A stretch of DNA of 34,575 nt from Chlorobiaceae bacterium (GTDB lineage Bacteria; Bacteroidota; Chlorobiia; Chlorobiales; Chlorobiaceae), in NCBI GenBank assembly GCA_013334485.1, contig JAAXXL010000024.1, positions 1 through 34,575 of the forward strand. Reading direction: 5' to 3'. Both the position numbers and the translations under genes were made by a program. The notes under the pieces were generated by a model. It made no database searches. It saw nothing but the letters and a program-made list of their open reading frames with translations, and was not told the origin of the DNA. Positions 9,973-22,863 of the stretch are shown piece after piece; the first letter of the stretch is position 1, and the number at the start of each line of letters is the position of its first letter.

Positions 9973-9995
9973 ATCTCCCTCCCATTATTGGTATG

Positions 9996-10031
9996 GTCAT
10001 CCCGATGACGACCTGTCCGCAGAGGGATACC
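9996..10031. repeat. REP-like repeat (family 2), left half only
   Basis: The sequence beginning GTCATCCCGATGACGACCTG and continuing to GCAGAGGGATACC matches the left half of the copies at 17205-17302 and 18157-18252. The right half with TTCGAAATGACA is missing. Confidence 0.7.
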
Positions 10032-10036
10032 GCTTA

Positions 10037-10074
10037 CCGGCAACTATGGTACGTATTTCAGTTACTATTGCCGG
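10037..10074 (+). promoter_or_regulatory. Inverted repeat upstream of the first NACHT gene
   Basis: The arms CCGGCAA (10037-10043) and TTGCCGG (10068-10074) are separated by 24 bases, about 110 bp before the start codon at 10186. It could be an operator, part of a leader hairpin or a repeat remnant. No convincing -35/-10 pair was identified with it. Confidence 0.3.
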
Positions 10075-10185
10075 AAATCTGCATCAAAATCGCTGTTATT
10101 TTTTACAAGCAATCTTCAATGATGGAAAAAATACTTAGTTTTTCAGCTTGCACCTGAAACTACTGAACGTTACCCCTCTTGCATC

Positions 10186-13100
10186 ATGATGGCTGATAAA
10201 CGGGTCAAAATTGTCAAGGTACTTATCGCTTCTCCCGGCGATGTTGTTGCAGAGCGCAAGATTGCACAGGAGGTTATCAATGAGTGGAACAATCATAATG
10301 CGGAGAGGTGTGGAGTGACACTTCAGGCGATACTGTGGGAAACAGATACAGCTTCGGAGATGGGGGCGAGGACACAGGAGATTATCAATGAACAGATTGT
10401 CAACGATTGCGATTGTGCCATCGGCATTTTCTGGAATCGCATTGGCACCGATACAGGTGTTGCTCCCGGCGGTGCGGTTGAAGAAATCGATTTGTTGCAG
10501 CGAAAGGACAATCGTGTCATGCTCTATTTTTCGGGAGTAAAAGTAGACTCGAATACGCTCGACCTGGATCAGTTAGCAAAGCTCAGAAAATACAAGGCAT
10601 CGTTACAGAAAGAAGCGCTCATAACGGAGTATGAGGAACTTCATGAGTTTAAGGCAGCGCTTCTGCGTCAGCTTGGCCTACAGGTTCGTCGCTGGTTCTG
10701 TGACGATGGAGGGCGCGATGGGAGTGAGGAAAGTCGTTCCGATAATATCGAGATGTTGCGATGGTACCATGCTGCGCTGAAAGAGGAGGTGGGATATATC
10801 CGTATGCTTGGAATGCCGGACGTGGAGAGCATCAAGATCAATCTCAATGACGATACCTTTGTGCCGCTTCGCTTTTCCGGAAGCCAGCGTCGTAATGAAG
10901 CCGGGCATGCAGAAAAGATGGAGCCTTTGCTTCACAAGGAAGGGGAACTCCATGAACCTGACAGGGTTATGCAGCAGGCATTCCGGCAAACGCGGATGCT
11001 GCTCGTCATCGGTGACCCTGGGGCAGGAAAGACAACCCTGCTCAGCTACTACGTCTTGTCTGCTCTTGACGGAAACCGCTGTAGCCGACTTGGATTTTCA
11101 GTGCCGCTGAAGGTCTTTTACCTCAAGTTGCGTGAAATTGAACTGGAAATAAAACAGGCAAAGCACAAAGGCGAACCAGCATTTCTTCACCATAATCTCG
11201 CTCAATGGGCAGTAAAAAAGCATAAAAATATTGAACCGGAACAGTTTAAAAATTGGCTTGATGAGGGTACCTCGCTGGTTTTGCTTGACGGTCTCGATGA
11301 AATCAGCGATCAACAGAAGCGAATAGCCGTTTGCAGATGGATTGACGGCGCTGTTGATGGTTTTCAAAAAGCCTTTTTTGTGGTGACATCCCGTGGTACC
11401 GGATATCGAAAGGAAGATGGCATTGAGCTTGAGTGTGATTACGAGCGTGCCGATGTTCAGGATTTTTCGACGGAGCAGCAGGAGCGGTTTTTAAGGAACT
11501 GGTTCAGGGCTGCTTTTTTGCGTGAACTTGGAGAGGGCACTGAATGGCAGAAAGAAGCTGACGAGCGGACAAAAAAAATTATCGAACACCTTGAAAAGTC
11601 AAGTAACAGGGGGTTGCGTCAACTGGCCGCCATACCCATGATTCTCCAGATTATGGCCATTCTCTGGAAAGAACGGGACTATTTGCCGGAAACCCGTGAA
11701 AAACTCTACAGTGTTGTTCTTGATTATCTGCTTGAACAGAGGGATAAACGCAGGGGAATCTATCTTCTCTCAGCCAACCTGTCTCGTAAGGTGCTTGGGC
11801 CTGTTTCGTTCTGGATGCAGAAGGAGCGGAAAAGCGATGCGGTGGAGAGGGCGAAGATGCAGAAAAAAATGAAGGAGCGGCTCGACAGGCTCAAAAATCC
11901 ACCTGATGTTACTGCCTATTGCGATTTTCTTGTCAAACGTGCAGGATTGCTCGTCGAGTATGGTAAGGATTATCTCTTCCGCCATAAATCGTTCCGTGAA
12001 TACCTCGCCGGAGTGGAGCTTCTGAAAAAAGTTCATCAAAGACCAGGCTGTCTCGATACGCTGATTGCAGGTTTTGATAGTGACTGGTGGGACGAACCAT
12101 TGCGGTTCTTTATTGCACAGAGTGATGATAAGGTGTTTGATCTTTTCATGAAAAAGCTTTTTGCGTCACCAGTCAGTGATGATCTTTTGCAAAAGAAAAT
12201 GGAGTTGATTCGTACTCTGATTGATGAAGCACCACTGAAAAAGGTTGACGCACTTTGCAAGCAACTATCTGCTTCGGAAAATTCAGCCACTCGGCAACTG
12301 TTGATTCTTGAGTGTATTGAAGCTGTTAACAAGTCTGATGCGCTTGATAAATTACTGGAGTTCAGGGCAAAGAAGCTTGCCGTCAATGATGATGTTTTTA
12401 GCCGTCAAGAGACGGTTATTCTTGCTTTTGGCGGCCAGCCATTGAAACGTGAATCCGAAAAAAGTGTCAGCGGCAAGCTCCTGTCAAGACGCAATGAGCA
12501 TGAACAGAACGCAGAGTATATCCTGATACCCGCAGGGAGCTACATCTACTCGGCAACAAAAAAAGAGGTTACAGTTGAGGAACTCTATGTTGCGAAATAT
12601 CCGGTAACCAACCGCCTCTATCGATCATTCATTTCCTCGCTGCAGGTAAAAGATTCAAACAGTGAGTTATTTAGAGCCAGGCTGGACTTCATCGCAACGA
12701 ATAACATCTGGGATACCGGATTTGGTGATTACTTCAAGGAAGGAAAGGGTGATCTTGCCACTCTTTTTCGTTCAAAGCGTGATGACGATCGTAAATTTGG
12801 CGGAGATGACCAGCCGGTGGTCAGTATTACCTGGTATGCAGCACAAGCCTATTGTCTGTGGCTTTCGCTGCTTGAAGGGAGCAGGGATAATCTCTACAGT
12901 TTGCCGACTGAAATCGAGAGGGAGTGGGCTGCGGGTGGTCAACGTAACAAGCCGAAAGAGGTGCTGAACGTGACTCCCTATCCCTGGGGCAAAGATGATC
13001 CAACACCAAAACATGCCAATTACGGGAGTAATATCGGTTCTACGACACCTGTAAGTCGTTATCCTGAAGGGATGACTCCTGAAGGGTTGTACGATATGGC

Positions 13101-13284
13101 AGGCAATGTGTGGGAGTGGATGGAGAACAGGGCAGACAAGGATAAAGACGTCCGTGCGTTGCGCGGCGGTTCGTTGGACGACGATGCCGGTGATCTGCGT
13201 GGCGATTCCCGGACCTACCTCGATCCGGCCTACAGGAACTACCTTATCGGTTTTCGAGTTGTCCGCCCTGGTCACTTTTCCTGA
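10186..13284 (+). CDS. DUF4062-NACHT-FGE conflict-type NTPase, copy 1, with DGR-like variable C-terminus
   Basis: A 1032-residue cytoplasmic multidomain protein. Residues ~7-110 are a DUF4062-type domain (KVLIASPGDVVAERKIAQEV, then GIFWNRIGTDTGVAPGGAVEEI). A NACHT NTPase follows, with Walker A GDPGAGKTT at 276-284, Walker B LLDGLDE at 366-372 and the NACHT-associated FRHKSFREYLAG near 598-609. From ~777 to the end is a formylglycine-generating-enzyme/sulfatase (C-type-lectin-like) domain with YVAKYPVTNRLYRSFI, LPTEIEREW and MAGNVWEWM. NACHT proteins of this shape are STAND-type switches in phage defence or self/non-self recognition; the target here is unknown. The last ~36 codons carry the DGR-type variable region. 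There is no catalytic Cys evidence for a true FGE enzyme, so a binding role is likelier. The start is ATGATG with no good Shine-Dalgarno; ATG 10189 is equally possible. Confidence 0.9.
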   Translation: MMADKRVKIVKVLIASPGDVVAERKIAQEVINEWNNHNAERCGVTLQAILWETDTASEMGARTQEIINEQIVNDCDCAIGIFWNRIGTDTGVAPGGAVEEIDLLQRKDNRVMLYFSGVKVDSNTLDLDQLAKLRKYKASLQKEALITEYEELHEFKAALLRQLGLQVRRWFCDDGGRDGSEESRSDNIEMLRWYHAALKEEVGYIRMLGMPDVESIKINLNDDTFVPLRFSGSQRRNEAGHAEKMEPLLHKEGELHEPDRVMQQAFRQTRMLLVIGDPGAGKTTLLSYYVLSALDGNRCSRLGFSVPLKVFYLKLREIELEIKQAKHKGEPAFLHHNLAQWAVKKHKNIEPEQFKNWLDEGTSLVLLDGLDEISDQQKRIAVCRWIDGAVDGFQKAFFVVTSRGTGYRKEDGIELECDYERADVQDFSTEQQERFLRNWFRAAFLRELGEGTEWQKEADERTKKIIEHLEKSSNRGLRQLAAIPMILQIMAILWKERDYLPETREKLYSVVLDYLLEQRDKRRGIYLLSANLSRKVLGPVSFWMQKERKSDAVERAKMQKKMKERLDRLKNPPDVTAYCDFLVKRAGLLVEYGKDYLFRHKSFREYLAGVELLKKVHQRPGCLDTLIAGFDSDWWDEPLRFFIAQSDDKVFDLFMKKLFASPVSDDLLQKKMELIRTLIDEAPLKKVDALCKQLSASENSATRQLLILECIEAVNKSDALDKLLEFRAKKLAVNDDVFSRQETVILAFGGQPLKRESEKSVSGKLLSRRNEHEQNAEYILIPAGSYIYSATKKEVTVEELYVAKYPVTNRLYRSFISSLQVKDSNSELFRARLDFIATNNIWDTGFGDYFKEGKGDLATLFRSKRDDDRKFGGDDQPVVSITWYAAQAYCLWLSLLEGSRDNLYSLPTEIEREWAAGGQRNKPKEVLNVTPYPWGKDDPTPKHANYGSNIGSTTPVSRYPEGMTPEGLYDMAGNVWEWMENRADKDKDVRALRGGSLDDDAGDLRGDSRTYLDPAYRNYLIGFRVVRPGHFS
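13151..13275 (+). other. DGR-like variable region 1 (VR1) with invariant flanks
   Basis: The variable part is 13174-13245 (24 codons). The upstream flank from 13151 to 13174 and the downstream flank from 13246 are almost identical to copy 2 (16909-16932 and 17004 onward). Between them the two genes differ at 19 bases, 18 at codon positions 1 or 2. The six adenine-free codons (CTG, CGT, TCC, CGG, CTC, CCG) are unchanged. The GC-rich downstream flank 13249-13275 (encoding GFRVVRPGH) sits where an IMH element would be. This is the pattern left by adenine-directed mutagenic retrohoming. I infer it from two copies only; the template itself is not in the window. Confidence 0.85.
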
Positions 13285-13381
13285 AATTCTGGCATTCTGT
13301 TTTCTGGATATCTGAGCCCTTTTCATGTCAGCGTGAACTTTATCCATGTTAACGCGATGTCTTTTATGGTTGTCCCGACCT

Positions 13382-13411
13382 CCCTCCATGTCATCCCGAC
13401 AGAATGGAGGG
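13382..13411. repeat. Hairpin with REP-like core between NACHT copy 1 and the Avd-FGE gene
   Basis: The arms CCCTCCAT (13382-13389) and ATGGAGGG (13404-13411) enclose GTCATCCCGACAGA, a fragment of the family 2 repeat, and GATCTCG follows as in other copies. It may act as an attenuator or terminator after the first NACHT gene. Confidence 0.55.
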
Positions 13412-13455
13412 ATCTCGTTATGCCGGATAGTGAATAATTTGTAAAGAATACCATT

Positions 13456-14004
13456 ATGCCGAATAATGAGATGATCATTGTTAAAAAAGCCTATGACTTT
13501 TCGAAATGGCTGTTGCAGCATACCGGGAAGTTTCCCAAGAGTTACCGGTTCAGTGTTGCTGTGCGTATTGAAAATGCGGTGCTGGAGTTCACCGAAATTC
13601 TTGCGGTTGCCAACATGGAAACTGATGGCAGGAATCCAGGTTTGTATCGTCTGCCTACAGAGGTTGAGTGGGAATATGCTGCCAGTGGAAAGGAAAGGAG
13701 ACCTTACCCCTGGGGTACCCCGGCGCCAACATCACATCGAGCAAATTTCAAGAGCAGGAAAGAGGCAACAACGCCTGTTGGACGTTATCCTGAAGGTGCT
13801 ACACCTGACGGGTTATGTGATATGGCTGGCAATGTCTGGGAGTGGATGAGTAACTGGAATGCGCAGGAAAAAGAGAAGTTTTTTACGCGAGGAGGTTCGT
13901 GGGACACTTCTCCTGATTATCTCCGTTGCACAGTTTCCGGGTTCCAGAGACCGGTCTACAGATCTTCCGATATTGGTTTTCGTGTTGTGCGTTCTGCCAT
14001 CTGA
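13456..14004 (+). CDS. Avd-FGE chimera: N-terminal half of a DGR accessory protein joined to an FGE domain
   Basis: A 182-residue protein in two parts. Residues 1-53 (IIVKKAYDFSKWLLQHTGKF, then PKSYRFSVAVRIENAVLEF and TEILAVANM) read as helices 1-2 of the Avd/four-helix-bundle family. The spacing matches bacteriophage BPP-1 Avd: an I-V start, Y, a long helix, a F/I-P-[KR] turn, then an EL-rich helix ending in A. A complete Avd has ~120-130 residues; the second half is missing. From ~54 the protein is the C-terminal half of an FGE/sulfatase domain (YRLPTEVEWEYAASG, MAGNVWEWM, TRGGSW, IGFRVVR). Position after a VR-bearing gene is where avd sits in DGRs. It lies 56 bp before NACHT copy 2. It may be a scar or a working fusion. 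Start alternatives are ATG 13456 and ATG 13471. Confidence 0.75.
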   Translation: MPNNEMIIVKKAYDFSKWLLQHTGKFPKSYRFSVAVRIENAVLEFTEILAVANMETDGRNPGLYRLPTEVEWEYAASGKERRPYPWGTPAPTSHRANFKSRKEATTPVGRYPEGATPDGLCDMAGNVWEWMSNWNAQEKEKFFTRGGSWDTSPDYLRCTVSGFQRPVYRSSDIGFRVVRSAI

Positions 14005-14060
14005 ATTGTCGGATTATCCGAAAAATATCGATCAAGTCCTCGAAAGTAACGGACAAAAAA

Positions 14061-17042
14061 ATGAAAAGTATAATGGCTGATAAACGGGTCAAAATTGTCA
14101 AGGTACTTATCGCTTCTCCCGGCGATGTTGTTGCAGAGCGCAAGATTGCACAGGAGGTTATCAATGAATGGAACAATCAGAATGCAGCGGATCGAGGTGT
14201 CACCCTTCAGGCTGTTTTATGGGAATCGGATGCTGCTCCTGATTTCGGTGACAGAGTGCAGGGGGTTCTCAATAAACAGATTGTTGATCAATGTGATTTT
14301 GCTATCGCTGTTTTCTGGACACGGATTGGTACCGATACAGGAGTAGCTCCCGGCGGAGCCGTTGAGGAGATAGAGCGGATGCGAAACCAGAATAAACTGG
14401 TCATGCTTTATTTCTCCAATGCGCGAGTTGATCTTAAAATGCTCGACGTAGAGCAGTTAACAAAGCTCAAACAATACAAGGAATCGTTGCAGAAAAAGGC
14501 ACTTGTAACGGAGTATGACGAGCTTCATGAATTTCGTGCAAAGCTTCTTCGTCAGCTTGACAAGCAGGTTCGCCAGTGGTTTTGTTCAATAGAGTCTGGT
14601 GATGTTTCTCAATCAGTTGATAGTGATTCCGTGCGAGCATTGCTTCGTTACCACTTGACTTTGCAAAAGGAACTCGGAAACATCAATCTATCGGGATCAC
14701 CCGCAATTGAGAGCTTTTCTGTCAGGCTGAAGGATACCTTTGTTTCGTTATCTCTTTCAGCCACATCACGCTGTGAAACACGTCTGCATGCAGGAGATAT
14801 GCAGAGTGAACCAGAAAAAGAGGATCGCGCCAGCACACCTGAACGGGTAATGGAGTTTGTTTTTCAGCATCATCCCCTGTTGCTTGTTATCGGCGATCCC
14901 GGTTCCGGAAAAACCACCCTGCTCCAATATTACGCGCTCTCCTGTCTCGACAATGGTCGGCACAGGGAGTTTGGTTTTAGTGAGCCGGTCAATGTTTTTT
15001 ATCTGCCGCTGCGTGACCTCGTTAAAACCGAAAAAGGCTATGCGTCACTACCGGCAAGTCTCTCGCTGTGGGCTCAAAAATATTTTCTTGAAATTGATGA
15101 ATCCCTCTTTAGAGAATGGCTTAAGGAGCCATCAACCCTTGTGCTTCTTGACGGGCTTGATGAAATCAGCGATGTTCATGACCGTGTAGCGGTTTGTCAA
15201 TGGATTAACTACACCGTTTCAGGGTTTGCCAATGCGCGGTTTGTGGTGACCTCAAGAAGTACAGGTTACCGAAAGGGCGATGGCATTGAGCTTGAAGCAA
15301 GTCATCTGCGGGCTGATATCATGGATTTTACAGGGGCGCAGCAGGCAGAGTTTTTACATCTCTGGTTCAGGGCTGCGTTTCTTGGCGAGCTTCCACCAGG
15401 TTCAAGGGATGATGCAAAGTGGAAAAGCCGACAGGAACAGATTGCTCTCAACAAAGCCAATGCCATTATTGCCTACTTGGCACAGGATAAAAACAAAAGT
15501 TTACGCTCGCTTGCAGGTATCCCCCTGCTCTTGCAGATTATGGCTATGCTCTGGAAAGATCGGGAATATATGCCGGGCAGCCGAGTGAAGCTTTACGATG
15601 CAGCATTGAACTATATGCTCGATTATCGTGACCGGCGCAGGGGAATCTATCCACTGCTTGCTGCAGAGGATGCAAGGCGGGTGCTGAGTCCGGTTTCTCT
15701 CTGGATGCAGGAGGAGCTGAAAAAGGATGAGGTTGATAGCGCTGAGATGCAGTTGAAAATGCAGGAGATGCTTGATACCCTCTACAATTCATTGCCTGCT
15801 GATGAATTCTGCCGCAATCTTGTTGACAGGGCAGGGGTTTTGGTTGACTATGGCAGCAGGGAATATGTGTTCCGCCACAAATCATTCCGGGAGTACCTGG
15901 CGGGAGTACAGCTCGTTAAAAACATGCATCGTCCAGATTATCTTGATGATCTGGTTACTCATTTCGGCGATGACTGGTGGCAGGAGGTGTTCCGCTTTTT
16001 TATCGGTTATGTTGAGGATGCGGAGCTGTTCGACAGCTTTATGCAGAAGCTATTTGATTCGCCGGTTACGGACTCATTGACCCAGAAACAGCAGGATTTG
16101 CTTGTTACCCTTGTCGAGGAGGCTCCCCAGAGGAAGATCACTGCCCTGCAAAAGAAGTTGTTTGACCCGAAAACCACTCAAAACCGGCAGCAATACATCC
16201 TGGAGTGCCTGAAAACCATCGGCAAGCAGGCAGCACTTGATACTGTCAGAACGTTTACTGAAACCGGTTTGAAAAATGTTTTGCTCGACAAGCTTGGTGC
16301 AGAATATATCCTGCTACAGGGTGGAAGTTTCACCTTTTCCCTGACAAAAAAGTCTGAAGTTGTGCCTGACCTCTATGTCGCAAAATATACGGTTACCAAC
16401 AGGCTCTACCGGCAATTCATCAACTACCTGCAGTCAGAAACGGTGCCCGAAAGCAATGCTCGGTATAAGGAGAAGTTGCAGGCAATGGCGAAAAGTATCG
16501 AGGGATTCAGCGACTTCATCCAGGGCAAAAATGATCTCGCAATGCTTTTCCGTTCTGAATCGGACGATGACAAGCGATTCAACAAAGATGACCAGCCGGT
16601 GATGGACATAAGCTGGTATGCGGCCAAAGCCTATTGTCTGTGGCTCTCAATGCTTGAAGGCCGCACGGATGATTATTACCGCTTGCCGACGGAGCTGGAG
16701 TGGGAGTATGCTGCGGCTGGAAAAGAGGGACGAAAATATCCATGGGGCAATGCAGAACCAACTGCAAAACTCGCTAACTATAATAAGAATGAAGGCGCTA
16801 CAACCCCGGTTGGTCGTTATCCTGAAGGGGCGACTCCTGAAGGGTTGTACGATATGGCAGGCAATGTTTGGGAGTGGATGGAGAACTGTTATAACAATGA
16901 TAAAGAGATCCGTGCGTTGCGCGGCGGTTCGTGGTACTACATTACCGATTATCTGCGTTGCGTTTCCCGGATCTTCCTCATTCCGGCATACAGGTACTTC
17001 TATATCGGTTTTCGAGTTGTCCGCCCTGGTCACTCTTCCTGA
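14061..17042 (+). CDS. DUF4062-NACHT-FGE conflict-type NTPase, copy 2, with DGR-like variable C-terminus
   Basis: A paralogue of the 10186-13284 gene with the same domain order: DUF4062-type N-terminus, NACHT with Walker A GDPGSGKTT (~278-286), Walker B LLDGLDE (~362-368) and FRHKSFREYLAG (~604), then an FGE/C-type-lectin domain from ~748 with YVAKYTVTNRLYRQFI, LPTELEWEYAAAG and MAGNVWEWM. It is 993 residues from ATG 14061, which has a GGA about 7 nt upstream; ATG 14073 aligns with copy 1 and is the alternative. The frame is open to 13926 but that extension overlaps the preceding gene and has no homology to copy 1. The proteins diverge considerably in the middle, yet the first 95 bases of the homologous part and the 3' flank are nearly identical at the DNA level. 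It is likely an NTP-driven recognition protein with a variable binding face. Confidence 0.9.
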   Translation: MKSIMADKRVKIVKVLIASPGDVVAERKIAQEVINEWNNQNAADRGVTLQAVLWESDAAPDFGDRVQGVLNKQIVDQCDFAIAVFWTRIGTDTGVAPGGAVEEIERMRNQNKLVMLYFSNARVDLKMLDVEQLTKLKQYKESLQKKALVTEYDELHEFRAKLLRQLDKQVRQWFCSIESGDVSQSVDSDSVRALLRYHLTLQKELGNINLSGSPAIESFSVRLKDTFVSLSLSATSRCETRLHAGDMQSEPEKEDRASTPERVMEFVFQHHPLLLVIGDPGSGKTTLLQYYALSCLDNGRHREFGFSEPVNVFYLPLRDLVKTEKGYASLPASLSLWAQKYFLEIDESLFREWLKEPSTLVLLDGLDEISDVHDRVAVCQWINYTVSGFANARFVVTSRSTGYRKGDGIELEASHLRADIMDFTGAQQAEFLHLWFRAAFLGELPPGSRDDAKWKSRQEQIALNKANAIIAYLAQDKNKSLRSLAGIPLLLQIMAMLWKDREYMPGSRVKLYDAALNYMLDYRDRRRGIYPLLAAEDARRVLSPVSLWMQEELKKDEVDSAEMQLKMQEMLDTLYNSLPADEFCRNLVDRAGVLVDYGSREYVFRHKSFREYLAGVQLVKNMHRPDYLDDLVTHFGDDWWQEVFRFFIGYVEDAELFDSFMQKLFDSPVTDSLTQKQQDLLVTLVEEAPQRKITALQKKLFDPKTTQNRQQYILECLKTIGKQAALDTVRTFTETGLKNVLLDKLGAEYILLQGGSFTFSLTKKSEVVPDLYVAKYTVTNRLYRQFINYLQSETVPESNARYKEKLQAMAKSIEGFSDFIQGKNDLAMLFRSESDDDKRFNKDDQPVMDISWYAAKAYCLWLSMLEGRTDDYYRLPTELEWEYAAAGKEGRKYPWGNAEPTAKLANYNKNEGATTPVGRYPEGATPEGLYDMAGNVWEWMENCYNNDKEIRALRGGSWYYITDYLRCVSRIFLIPAYRYFYIGFRVVRPGHSS
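16909..17033 (+). other. DGR-like variable region 2 (VR3) with invariant flanks
   Basis: This is the counterpart of 13151-13275. The variable part is 16932-17003, followed by an identical 30-base segment (17004-17033) and then further near-identity past the stop codon to about 17073. Variable codons include TGG, TAC, TAC, ATT, ACC, GAT, TAT where copy 1 has TTG, GAC, GAC, GAT, GCC, GGT, GAT. Most differing pairs imply AAC or AAT in a template. Only one difference (GCA/GCC) is at a third position. Confidence 0.85.
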
Positions 17043-17136
17043 AATTCTGGCAATCTGTTTTCTGGATATCTGGAAAGAAGCAAGTGGAAAGGGATGAGTG
17101 TCGAGAGCTGAGAAGAAGAGAAGACGAGGATTTTTT

Positions 17137-17165
17137 GCCACGAAAAACACGAAATTGCACGAAAG
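17137..17165. repeat. CACGAAA-type repeat (family 3)
   Basis: GCCACGAAAAACACGAAATT followed by GCACGAAAGG has the periodic CACGAAA units found again at 30338-30426 and around 33996-34040. It lies in the 372-base non-coding stretch 17043-17414, which otherwise holds a family 2 repeat, the homologous tail of NACHT copy 2 and an A/T-rich leader. Confidence 0.55.
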
Positions 17166-17204
17166 GAAGATAGCGAGGTTTGCCTGCAAATTCTTGCATT
17201 ACTT

Positions 17205-17302
17205 TGTCATCCTGATGACGACTTGTCGGCAGAGGGACTTGATTGTGTGGCATTGAAGTCAATGATTTCTCATCCCGACGCAGTCGGGAATTCGAAATGA
17301 CA
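17205..17302. repeat. REP-like repeat (family 2), full length
   Basis: It begins TGTCATCCTGATGACGACTT and ends GGGAATTCGAAATGACA. The outer ends are inverted (TGTCAT / ATGACA), with an inner CCCGACGCAGTCGGG hairpin. It is the same element as 18157-18252, so the restriction endonuclease gene is bracketed by two direct copies. Confidence 0.75.
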
Positions 17303-17414
17303 GGGAGGGTGGAGCAGGAGTGAGGGAATTTTAATTTTTTTTGAGTGAGTGATATTTTTCTGAAAGTATTGCACATGCACAGATGGCAACAAGAACTGAA
17401 AAGAGAGTTGCAGA

Positions 17415-18149
17415 ATGAGACCGATTTTTTTGAGTGAACTATCGGATTTTATTGATGAGGGAATTGGCATCATGAATCGGAAAAGAAAAGAGGTTCTTGA
17501 TGCAATGAGTCTGTCGGAGCTACTGGAGCAGCAAAATCCCTATCTCTTTGTTTTACAATCTGTTCAGGTTGTATCAGGGATTGTCCGGGGTCTGGTGGAT
17601 GCCCATATCTCTTCGAACGAGGAGACTGTTTTTGGTGACTGGCTTGAGGGGTTGGCTATTTTTATAAACGGCAAGGTTTATGGTGGATGGAAATCCGGTA
17701 TCCAGGGAGTGGACCTTGAGTTTGACAAGGATGGCAAGCGCTACATTGTCAACATCAAATCGGGGCCAAACTGGGGGAACAGCAGCCAGATTGCCAAAAT
17801 GAAGTCCGACTTCAGAACAGCGGCAAGAACCCTGCGTACCAGTAATTCAGGTGTTCAGATTGTAGCTGTCAATGGCTGCTGCTATGGAAAGACAAAAACA
17901 CCAGATCAGGGTGACTACTTCAAATATTGCGGACAGACCTTCTGGGAGTTTATCTCCTCATCTCCTACGCTTTTCACCGAACTCATTGAACCATTGGGGC
18001 ATATGGCCCGAGAGAAAAACGATGAGTTTCTGCAATCCTATGCCTGCATGCTCAACAGGTTCACCCGGCAATTCGGTGATGAGTTTTGTGAAGAGAGCGG
18101 TGCCATCAACTGGAAAAAGCTGGTTGAGTTCAACTCTTCTGCAACCTGA
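17415..18149 (+). CDS. PmeII-type type II restriction endonuclease, no methyltransferase alongside
   Basis: A 244-residue protein matching the PmeII-family restriction endonuclease pattern. The PD-(D/E)XK core reads GVDLEFDKDGKRYIVNIKSG followed by PNWGNSSQIAKM, with the acidic residues of VDLEF and the Lys of IKSG as likely active-site groups. Later it has a Cys/Gly segment (NGCCYGKTKTPDQGDYFKYC) and GQTFWEFIS, which are also family-like. It would cut DNA at an unknown site. No methyltransferase ORF lies on either side: upstream is NACHT copy 2, downstream a lipocalin. Protection must come from elsewhere, or the enzyme is inactive or not a classical restriction enzyme. ATG 17415 has a weak GAGAG upstream; ATG 17472 is an alternative. 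Two family 2 repeats bracket it. Confidence 0.75.
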   Translation: MRPIFLSELSDFIDEGIGIMNRKRKEVLDAMSLSELLEQQNPYLFVLQSVQVVSGIVRGLVDAHISSNEETVFGDWLEGLAIFINGKVYGGWKSGIQGVDLEFDKDGKRYIVNIKSGPNWGNSSQIAKMKSDFRTAARTLRTSNSGVQIVAVNGCCYGKTKTPDQGDYFKYCGQTFWEFISSSPTLFTELIEPLGHMAREKNDEFLQSYACMLNRFTRQFGDEFCEESGAINWKKLVEFNSSAT

Positions 18150-18156
18150 CACACTC

Positions 18157-18252
18157 TGTCATCCCGATGACGACTTGTCGGCAGAGGGATCTCTTGTGAG
18201 CCATGAACGAGAGAGATTTCTCACCCCGAGTTCTTCGGGATTCGAAATGACA
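18157..18252. repeat. REP-like repeat (family 2), full length
   Basis: It begins TGTCATCCCGATGACGACTT and ends GGGATTCGAAATGACA. The interior has CCCCGAGTTCTTCGGG, a short hairpin. It lies between the endonuclease stop and the lipocalin start. Confidence 0.75.
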
Positions 18253-21501: not shown

Positions 21502-22863
21502 ATGCCTATGAACTCGACAAGTATTGGTAATGAGTTTGAGGACAGAATATACTGTTTCTTTAAAAAGGAAATAGATAGTGGGCAATTCTGGGCCAAGCCG
21601 GAATCTTGCAAGCTTTTCAGAAAAAAAGGCTATCACTCTAAGGATCGTGAAGCATTGATTATTTTTGATGTTTCTGTTGAAATTTTTCTTCCTGGATCTG
21701 AAGAGTACTCGTGTCTCGTGCTTTTTGAGTGTAAAAACTATACGCATTCTGTTCCAGTTAACGATGTTGAAGAGTTTTTTCAAAAAGTGCAGCAGGTTGG
21801 TGCTGCAAATTCAAAGTCGGTTTTGGCAAGTAACGCCGCTTTTCAATCAGGAACCAGAACATTTGCGAAATCAAAAGGTATCGGTCTTTTTCGGTACCGT
21901 GATCCTTCGTGTTGCAAATGGGAGTTAAAACGCTCATTTGCAGAAAGTCTGCGTGTCAAAATGATCGACCCCATAGATCTTGTGGAACAGGGTTTGTCAG
22001 AGCCTGCTCTTACAAACGAAGTCTTTTCTTTTTACTTCCAATCTCCGGTTCGCGTAACCAATTCGCTTTATGACTTTTTCGAAGATCTTGTTATTGATAA
22101 TGGATTTACATCAAGTTTGCTTAGTAAAGTTATAAATCAGCATAACCACTTATCGAGTCGGGTTCAATATCTTGAGAAAAATGAACTTGAAGAACGATGT
22201 GGGAAGTTTCTTCGGGATATTAATTATCAATCAGGAGAAGTTTCTCTTGATTTGATTTGCGCAAATGAGCGGGATCGTTGTGGGTTACAAGTTATTTTTG
22301 ATACTCCTCTGAGTAATGCCAAAGGGTGGAAACCAGTGCTTGGTTGTATAAACTTTTATCCACTTCAGATAAATATTTACGCACAAAAAATACCAATACA
22401 TGGACGAGAGCGATTCACCCTGGCTCATGAACTCGCCCATCACCTTCTTCAACATGATCAATATATGGTTAGGGAAACATGTGATGAAGGAGATTTTATT
22501 TTGCCAAGTCAAACTTTACAAGGTGAATCCGATATATCAAGAATGGAATTTCAAGCAAACTATTTTGCTGCATGTCTCTTAATGCCCGGACAGAATTTTG
22601 TTGCTGAATTCCATCGCATACTCCGTTTGCTTGATATACCAGATAAAGGATTCGGTGCGTTGTATGTTGACAATCAGCCATGTAATTTTCATAACTGTAA
22701 TCTTGTCATTAGTAATCTTATGCACCATTACGGTGTTTCACGGGCAGCAGCAAAGATTCGACTTGAGGGATTTGGATTACTTCGAGATACAAGAGTCAAC
22801 ATGGCATCGAGTTCTTCACATTCCATCTTTAAAGGTGTATTTGGAGAAGAGCTATTTGATTAA
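21502..22863 (+). CDS. Fusion of a PD-(D/E)XK nuclease-like domain with an ImmA/IrrE metallopeptidase
   Basis: A 453-residue protein in two parts. The N-terminus (~1-130) looks like an Mrr/restriction-endonuclease-like fold: IIFDVSVEIFLP with D56, then LVLFECKNY giving the E76-x-K78 pair, followed by a helix with a Gln (EEFFQKVQQVGA) and a core strand SKSVLASNAAFQSGTRTFAK. The C-terminus is an ImmA/IrrE (DUF955) zinc peptidase: FTLAHELAHHLLQH with HELAHH at 309-314 and the third-ligand helix MEFQANYFAACLLMP with E349. ImmA/IrrE enzymes cleave repressors to trigger responses. No XRE-type repressor gene is adjacent. It ends 8 bp before the convergent cydC stop. Each domain call is good; the joint function, probably defence or stress, is inference. 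Confidence 0.8.
   Translation: MPMNSTSIGNEFEDRIYCFFKKEIDSGQFWAKPESCKLFRKKGYHSKDREALIIFDVSVEIFLPGSEEYSCLVLFECKNYTHSVPVNDVEEFFQKVQQVGAANSKSVLASNAAFQSGTRTFAKSKGIGLFRYRDPSCCKWELKRSFAESLRVKMIDPIDLVEQGLSEPALTNEVFSFYFQSPVRVTNSLYDFFEDLVIDNGFTSSLLSKVINQHNHLSSRVQYLEKNELEERCGKFLRDINYQSGEVSLDLICANERDRCGLQVIFDTPLSNAKGWKPVLGCINFYPLQINIYAQKIPIHGRERFTLAHELAHHLLQHDQYMVRETCDEGDFILPSQTLQGESDISRMEFQANYFAACLLMPGQNFVAEFHRILRLLDIPDKGFGALYVDNQPCNFHNCNLVISNLMHHYGVSRAAAKIRLEGFGLLRDTRVNMASSSSHSIFKGVFGEELFD

Follow-up and report, generated by a model that had tools for sequence, protein, structure and literature searches.

Do the two neighbouring NACHT-FGE genes of a Chlorobiaceae bacterium, which end in a pair of variable regions (VR1 and VR2), still serve as targets of a diversity-generating retroelement (DGR), or has the machinery that diversified them been lost? 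The window analysed here, a stretch of 34,575 nucleotides corresponding to contig C108 of a draft genome (130 contigs, 95.9% complete), had been interpreted from its sequence alone as encoding a receptor with a diversifiable sensor. Our data point to a later stage in the life of such a system: with a probability of about 80%, the two genes are former targets of one DGR, which are now orphaned and probably frozen.

Gene 1 (10186-13284, plus strand) encodes 1032 aa, and gene 2 (14061-17042, plus strand) encodes 993 aa when counted from the ATG at 14061, the reading frame being open from a TTG at 13926. In both proteins a NACHT/STAND NTPase is fused to a C-terminal FGE/C-type-lectin (CLec) domain, with Pfam matches above the cut-off for NACHT (1.8e-12 in gene 1, 1.2e-10 in gene 2) as well as for FGE-sulfatase (1.1e-32 and 2.7e-43, respectively). 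The variable regions form the very end of each FGE domain, which is where the sequence-only reading had placed them. The N-terminus of gene 1 is weakly DUF4062-like (0.027, below the cut-off) and matches part of the PADLOC candidate PDC-S60 (3.7e-28); the corresponding N-terminal match of gene 2 to PDC-S60 reaches 2.2e-27. By sequence, the FGE domain with the variable region also matches the 294 aa chain of TvpA (PDB 2y3c; 8.6e-11), a DGR variable protein of solved structure, and a fold of this domain predicted from 21 sequences has pLDDT values below 50 over residues 158-250, which contain the variable region.

Direct alignment of VR1 (13174-13245, plus strand) with VR2 (16932-17003, plus strand) shows that 19 of the 72 bases differ and that 18 of these changes fall on the first or second position of a codon (P = 0.005 against random placement). 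The codons CTG, CGT, TCC, CGG, CTC and CCG stay the same in both copies. The flanks are nearly identical: the 23 bases before 13174 are shared without a difference, and the 70 bases past the last variable site (13245-13314), which extend beyond the stop codon, hold two differences. This pattern, including the six unchanged adenine-free codons, reproduces what had been described from the sequence alone. The shared, IMH-like 3' flank ATCGGTTTTCGAGT follows VR1 at 13246-13314 (plus strand) and VR2 at 17004-17072, and its core is common to templates and targets of the genus (ATATCGGTTTTCGAG, the shared 3' flank). Folding of the stretch 3' of the window variable regions gave no significant hairpin of the BPP-1-type hairpin/cruciform kind that was sought there.

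For the central claim, that the variable sites are those at which a template carries adenine, we relied on the templates of the genus in place of the cognate one, using a set of 8 templates and 31 equally long variable-region or related blocks. At 14 of the 19 window sites most genus templates have adenine (P = 7e-4); the other five are not adenine in these templates, namely codon 1 (position 2), codon 5 (position 1), codon 10 (position 1), codon 11 (position 2) and codon 19 (position 3), counted from the TTG/TGG codon. Judged by the genus templates, the window genes combine variation at template-adenine sites, a C-terminal CLec/FGE domain and conserved flanks, as DGR targets do. Because the genome in addition contains a DGR-type reverse transcriptase (RT), an Avd gene and an adenine-rich template, the proposed origin by DGR mutagenic retrohoming is supported. 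Ordinary positive selection on the binding surface of duplicated genes, together with gene conversion of the flanks and no involvement of a DGR, can also concentrate changes at codon positions 1 and 2, and the five sites that the adenines of known templates do not explain would fit such a scenario. Yet in many relatives this stretch forms a proven template/variable-region pair, with 172 of the 173 differences in 11 same-locus pairs falling on template adenines, and the two genes enclose a remnant of Avd, so that we consider selection without a DGR highly improbable.

At the non-adenine sites of codons 1, 10 and 11, all 35 other variable regions and templates carry a single base. Codon 1 is TTG in VR1 and TGG in VR2; the G is invariant in the 35 others, hence VR1 alone departs and has lost a conserved Trp. 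This exception had already been noticed and is real, and it most likely reflects an ordinary mutation in VR1. Codon 10, which had escaped notice, reads GGC in VR1 and TGC in VR2, with T in 35 of 35 others; again VR1 alone departs, here with the loss of a conserved Cys, and by this alignment it is an exception of the same kind. At codon 11 both window copies depart from the 35 others. Since each round of retrohoming would bring such sites back to the template sequence, VR1 has probably not been overwritten since the mutations at codons 1 and 10 arose. The departures at codons 5, 11 and 19 may simply stem from a different, lost template. Still, the five sites without adenine in the genus templates, and a lost template that is itself out of view, count against the reading of the two genes as orphaned targets.

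What happened to the machinery at this locus is suggested by an open reading frame between the two receptor genes (13456-14004, plus strand), which the sequence-only reading had not mentioned. In it, about the first 54 codons of a bAvd gene (13456-13617, plus strand; Pfam bAvd 1.6e-5, covering 1-60 of the 107 profile positions) run on into the C-terminal portion of a third FGE gene (13618-14004, plus strand; Pfam FGE 1.5e-27). Both halves match an intact DGR locus in the relative G033 (contig C30, locus L089), the bAvd remnant at L089:6987-7148 with 86% and the FGE remnant from position 10226 with 81%. In G033 the order is NACHT-FGE, bAvd, template, RT, a small antitoxin-like gene, a 462-aa FGE protein, NACHT-FGE and lipocalin, and a lipocalin gene also lies downstream in the window. 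Relative to G033, about 3.08 kb are absent, from within Avd through the template and the RT into the beginning of the FGE gene, and the two halves meet in frame between AACATG and GAAAC. The window locus hence seems to derive by deletion from an intact DGR locus like that of G033, whereby the two loci need not be strict orthologues, as G033 differs upstream of the locus. The third FGE gene's own loop is nearly unchanged between the window and G033 and is not diversified, and serves as an internal contrast with the same fold at the same locus. Its full-length counterpart in G033 (L089:9220-10608, 462 aa) combines this conserved, non-diversified FGE domain with a weak CAP12/Pycsar TIR-like N-terminus (0.003, below the cut-off).

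The deletion might be an artefact of assembly, or might be present only in part of the population, with other cells keeping the complete DGR. The genome is a draft, and intact and degraded variants of one DGR locus have been seen together (Dore 2024, PMC10907252). Against this speak the in-frame junction, for which G033 has no long repeat common to both deletion ends, and the fact that the assembly contains no second close RT, no second full Avd of this type and no second matching template elsewhere; we therefore regard either variant as decidedly unlikely. Among the matches listed, none of the other 64 genus genomes has the fused Avd/FGE arrangement as one match. As it stands in the assembly, the window does not hold a complete DGR locus: no RT adjoins the targets, no matching template was recovered and Avd is truncated.

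The remaining DGR components lie elsewhere in the genome. Its one DGR-type RT, with the motifs PIGNLTSQ and YVDD, is located on contig C102 (L017, 295-1332), with none in the window, and the close relatives found with it are from Chlorobiaceae. In these otherwise well conserved Chlorobiaceae DGR RTs the position directly following the catalytic YVDD is occupied by G, C, F or Y. At the end of contig C122 we find a NACHT-FGE target together with a bAvd gene (Pfam bAvd 1.5e-18) and an adenine-rich template. Compared with this template, the variable region of C122 has 15 differences and that of C102 has 12, each of them at a template adenine. Thus, the RT and the template expected somewhere in the genome do exist, but the RT is not beside the window targets, and we rejected the C122 template as the source of the window pair on account of 9 shared non-adenine mismatches to both variable regions. 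Searches of the draft assembly with VR1, with an adenine-filled consensus template and with a strict pattern recovered no template other than that of C122; a cognate template for VR1 and VR2 could sit in a gap of the 95.9% complete draft. The reading of the sensor at this locus as diversifiable is hence not supported, with template and RT deleted relative to G033. An RT on contig C25 (497 aa reading frame) was dismissed as a DGR RT, being group II intron RT-like by size and having no template or target found alongside. A second bAvd-like gene (G000:C40:10622-10939, L086) gives a weak match of 4e-4, below the cut-off.

Besides, the C122/C102 DGR itself appears damaged. Contig C122 terminates and C102 starts in the ends of an IS element (L006:2299-2442, L017:1-78) with the terminal repeats TCCTGACTTCTGCCAA and TTGGCAGAAGTCAGGA, which is flanked by a 17-base duplication, CAATATCGGTTTTCGAG, and a second copy of its left end is found on C89. 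Since G007 shows uninterrupted sequence here, C122 and C102 are neighbours, and the IS element explains the break between the contigs. Its insertion separates the template's 3' end from the RT, at a place where, in phage BPP-1, a spacer serves to recruit the complex of RT and Avd and to prime cDNA synthesis (PMC12875486). By analogy with BPP-1, the remaining DGR is therefore probably disabled too. This bears on the idea that VR1 and VR2 are still diversified in trans by a cognate template missing from the assembly together with the C102 RT and the C122 Avd. Trans action on remote targets has been proposed for Thiohalocapsa PB-PSB1 (PMC10907252), and the genome retains both the RT and a full-length Avd; moreover, there is the shared 3' flank ATATCGGTTTTCGAG, and the assembly is incomplete. 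However, no second template was found in the assembly, the IS element interrupts the remaining DGR between template and RT, and retrohoming would have repaired the non-template changes of VR1 at sites invariant in 35 of 35 others, which makes diversification in trans unlikely.

Past activity of the C122/C102 DGR can be read from a comparison with a relative. G007, the relative with the nearest RT (95% identical), has a template identical to that on C122, and the other two targets of the window genome differ from their G007 orthologues exclusively at template-adenine sites (20 of 20 and 14 of 14 differences; P = 4e-11 and 3e-7). An identical template combined with variable regions that differ only at its adenines shows that this DGR was active since the two species separated. 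Across the genus, a target- or template-like stretch occurs in 35 of 65 genomes and a close RT (at least 70% identical) in only 17, in a survey in which several genomes are incomplete and some matches weak. Based on these counts, orphan targets may be common in the genus. We can imagine further, albeit tentatively and at less than even odds, that both window genes are retained as working receptors whose DGR-made binding faces became fixed after loss of the mutator, a situation that might be common in the genus.

Returning to the two genes as orphaned targets, the following course of events would account for the data. Before the deletion, an RT-Avd complex would have copied the now lost template with errors opposite adenines, and the resulting copies, once inserted at the 3' end of each gene, would have remodelled the ligand-binding side of the FGE (C-type-lectin) domain. 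Ligand binding would cause the NACHT NTPase to oligomerise and thereby activate the N-terminal domain, in analogy to the bacterial NACHT/Avs anti-phage receptors. The deletion of about 3.08 kb then presumably removed template and RT and fused Avd in frame to the downstream FGE gene. Since then, VR1 and VR2 would be frozen and subject to ordinary mutation only, and VR1 already lacks two conserved residues. The locus would thus illustrate one fate of hypervariable bacterial immune-type receptors, in which the mutator disappears while the receptors persist. Combined with the G000/G007 comparison, it offers a manageable set of cases in green sulfur bacteria for finding out what such sensors bind and whether DGR diversity is kept, fixed or lost.

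The receptors also lie in a larger inserted block. An empty-site comparison shows that G007 and G003, which match the window on both sides, lack 10029-18156, the block with both receptors, the deletion scar and an EcoO109I-like gene; in these two genomes, a cation-efflux gene and a lipocalin gene border the empty site. Repeats of 33 bases with 94% identity flank the block (about 9995-10028 and 18157-18190), and this repeat also occurs elsewhere in the window. The same interval holds other NACHT-FGE genes in G030 and G047, and a DGR-type target adjoins the lipocalin gene in G033 and G057; from this distribution the site looks like a hotspot for such receptors and for defence. The EcoO109I-type restriction endonuclease (17415-18149; Pfam 2.8e-78) has no methyltransferase recognised alongside, and two C5-methyltransferase genes are found elsewhere in the genome, on C119 and C22. 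A further window gene (21502-22863) encodes a protein with Mrr-type restriction and IrrE/M78 peptidase domains.

In the context of known systems, the hypervariable NACHT receptor is an idea that is already published (PMC10907252), and the window pair is a decayed example of these DGR-diversified receptors. Dore et al. (2024, PMC10907252) described NACHT/STAND proteins with CLec or FGE domains that are diversified by DGRs, often as a pair of targets at one locus, named Chlorobi as carriers among others, and also reported incomplete loci, probable trans action and transposon damage; links of DGRs to NTP-dependent conflict systems had been reported in 2020 (PMC7159879). DGR 3 and 6 of Thiohalocapsa PB-PSB1 (clade 5D, PMC10907252) share with the window two neighbouring NACHT/STAND NTPase targets with the variable region in the C-terminal CLec/FGE domain, whereas in the window the Avd-template-RT cassette is deleted, an in-frame Avd/FGE scar is left and the cognate template was not found. 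The DiGReF list of 2012 contains Chlorobium phaeobacteroides DSM 266 (2 VRs) and Pelodictyon phaeoclathratiforme BU-1 (4 VRs) (PMC3521204), which, going by that list, belong to the same family and likewise have several variable regions per RT, but are complete DGRs. The intact Chlorobiaceae loci G033:C30 (L089) and G007:C7 (L090) have the same gene families and order and a near-identical 3' flank core, and in contrast to the window both retain template, Avd and RT. TvpA of Treponema denticola resembles the window proteins in its FGE/C-type-lectin domain with a C-terminal variable region, with no NACHT domain reported in the matched chain. Finally, the Avs/bNACHT anti-phage STAND proteins have the same arrangement of an N-terminal domain, a central STAND NTPase and a C-terminal putative sensor; in the window genes, unlike in these, the putative sensor is an FGE/CLec domain, a type of sensor for which no experiment is reported (PMC10907252).
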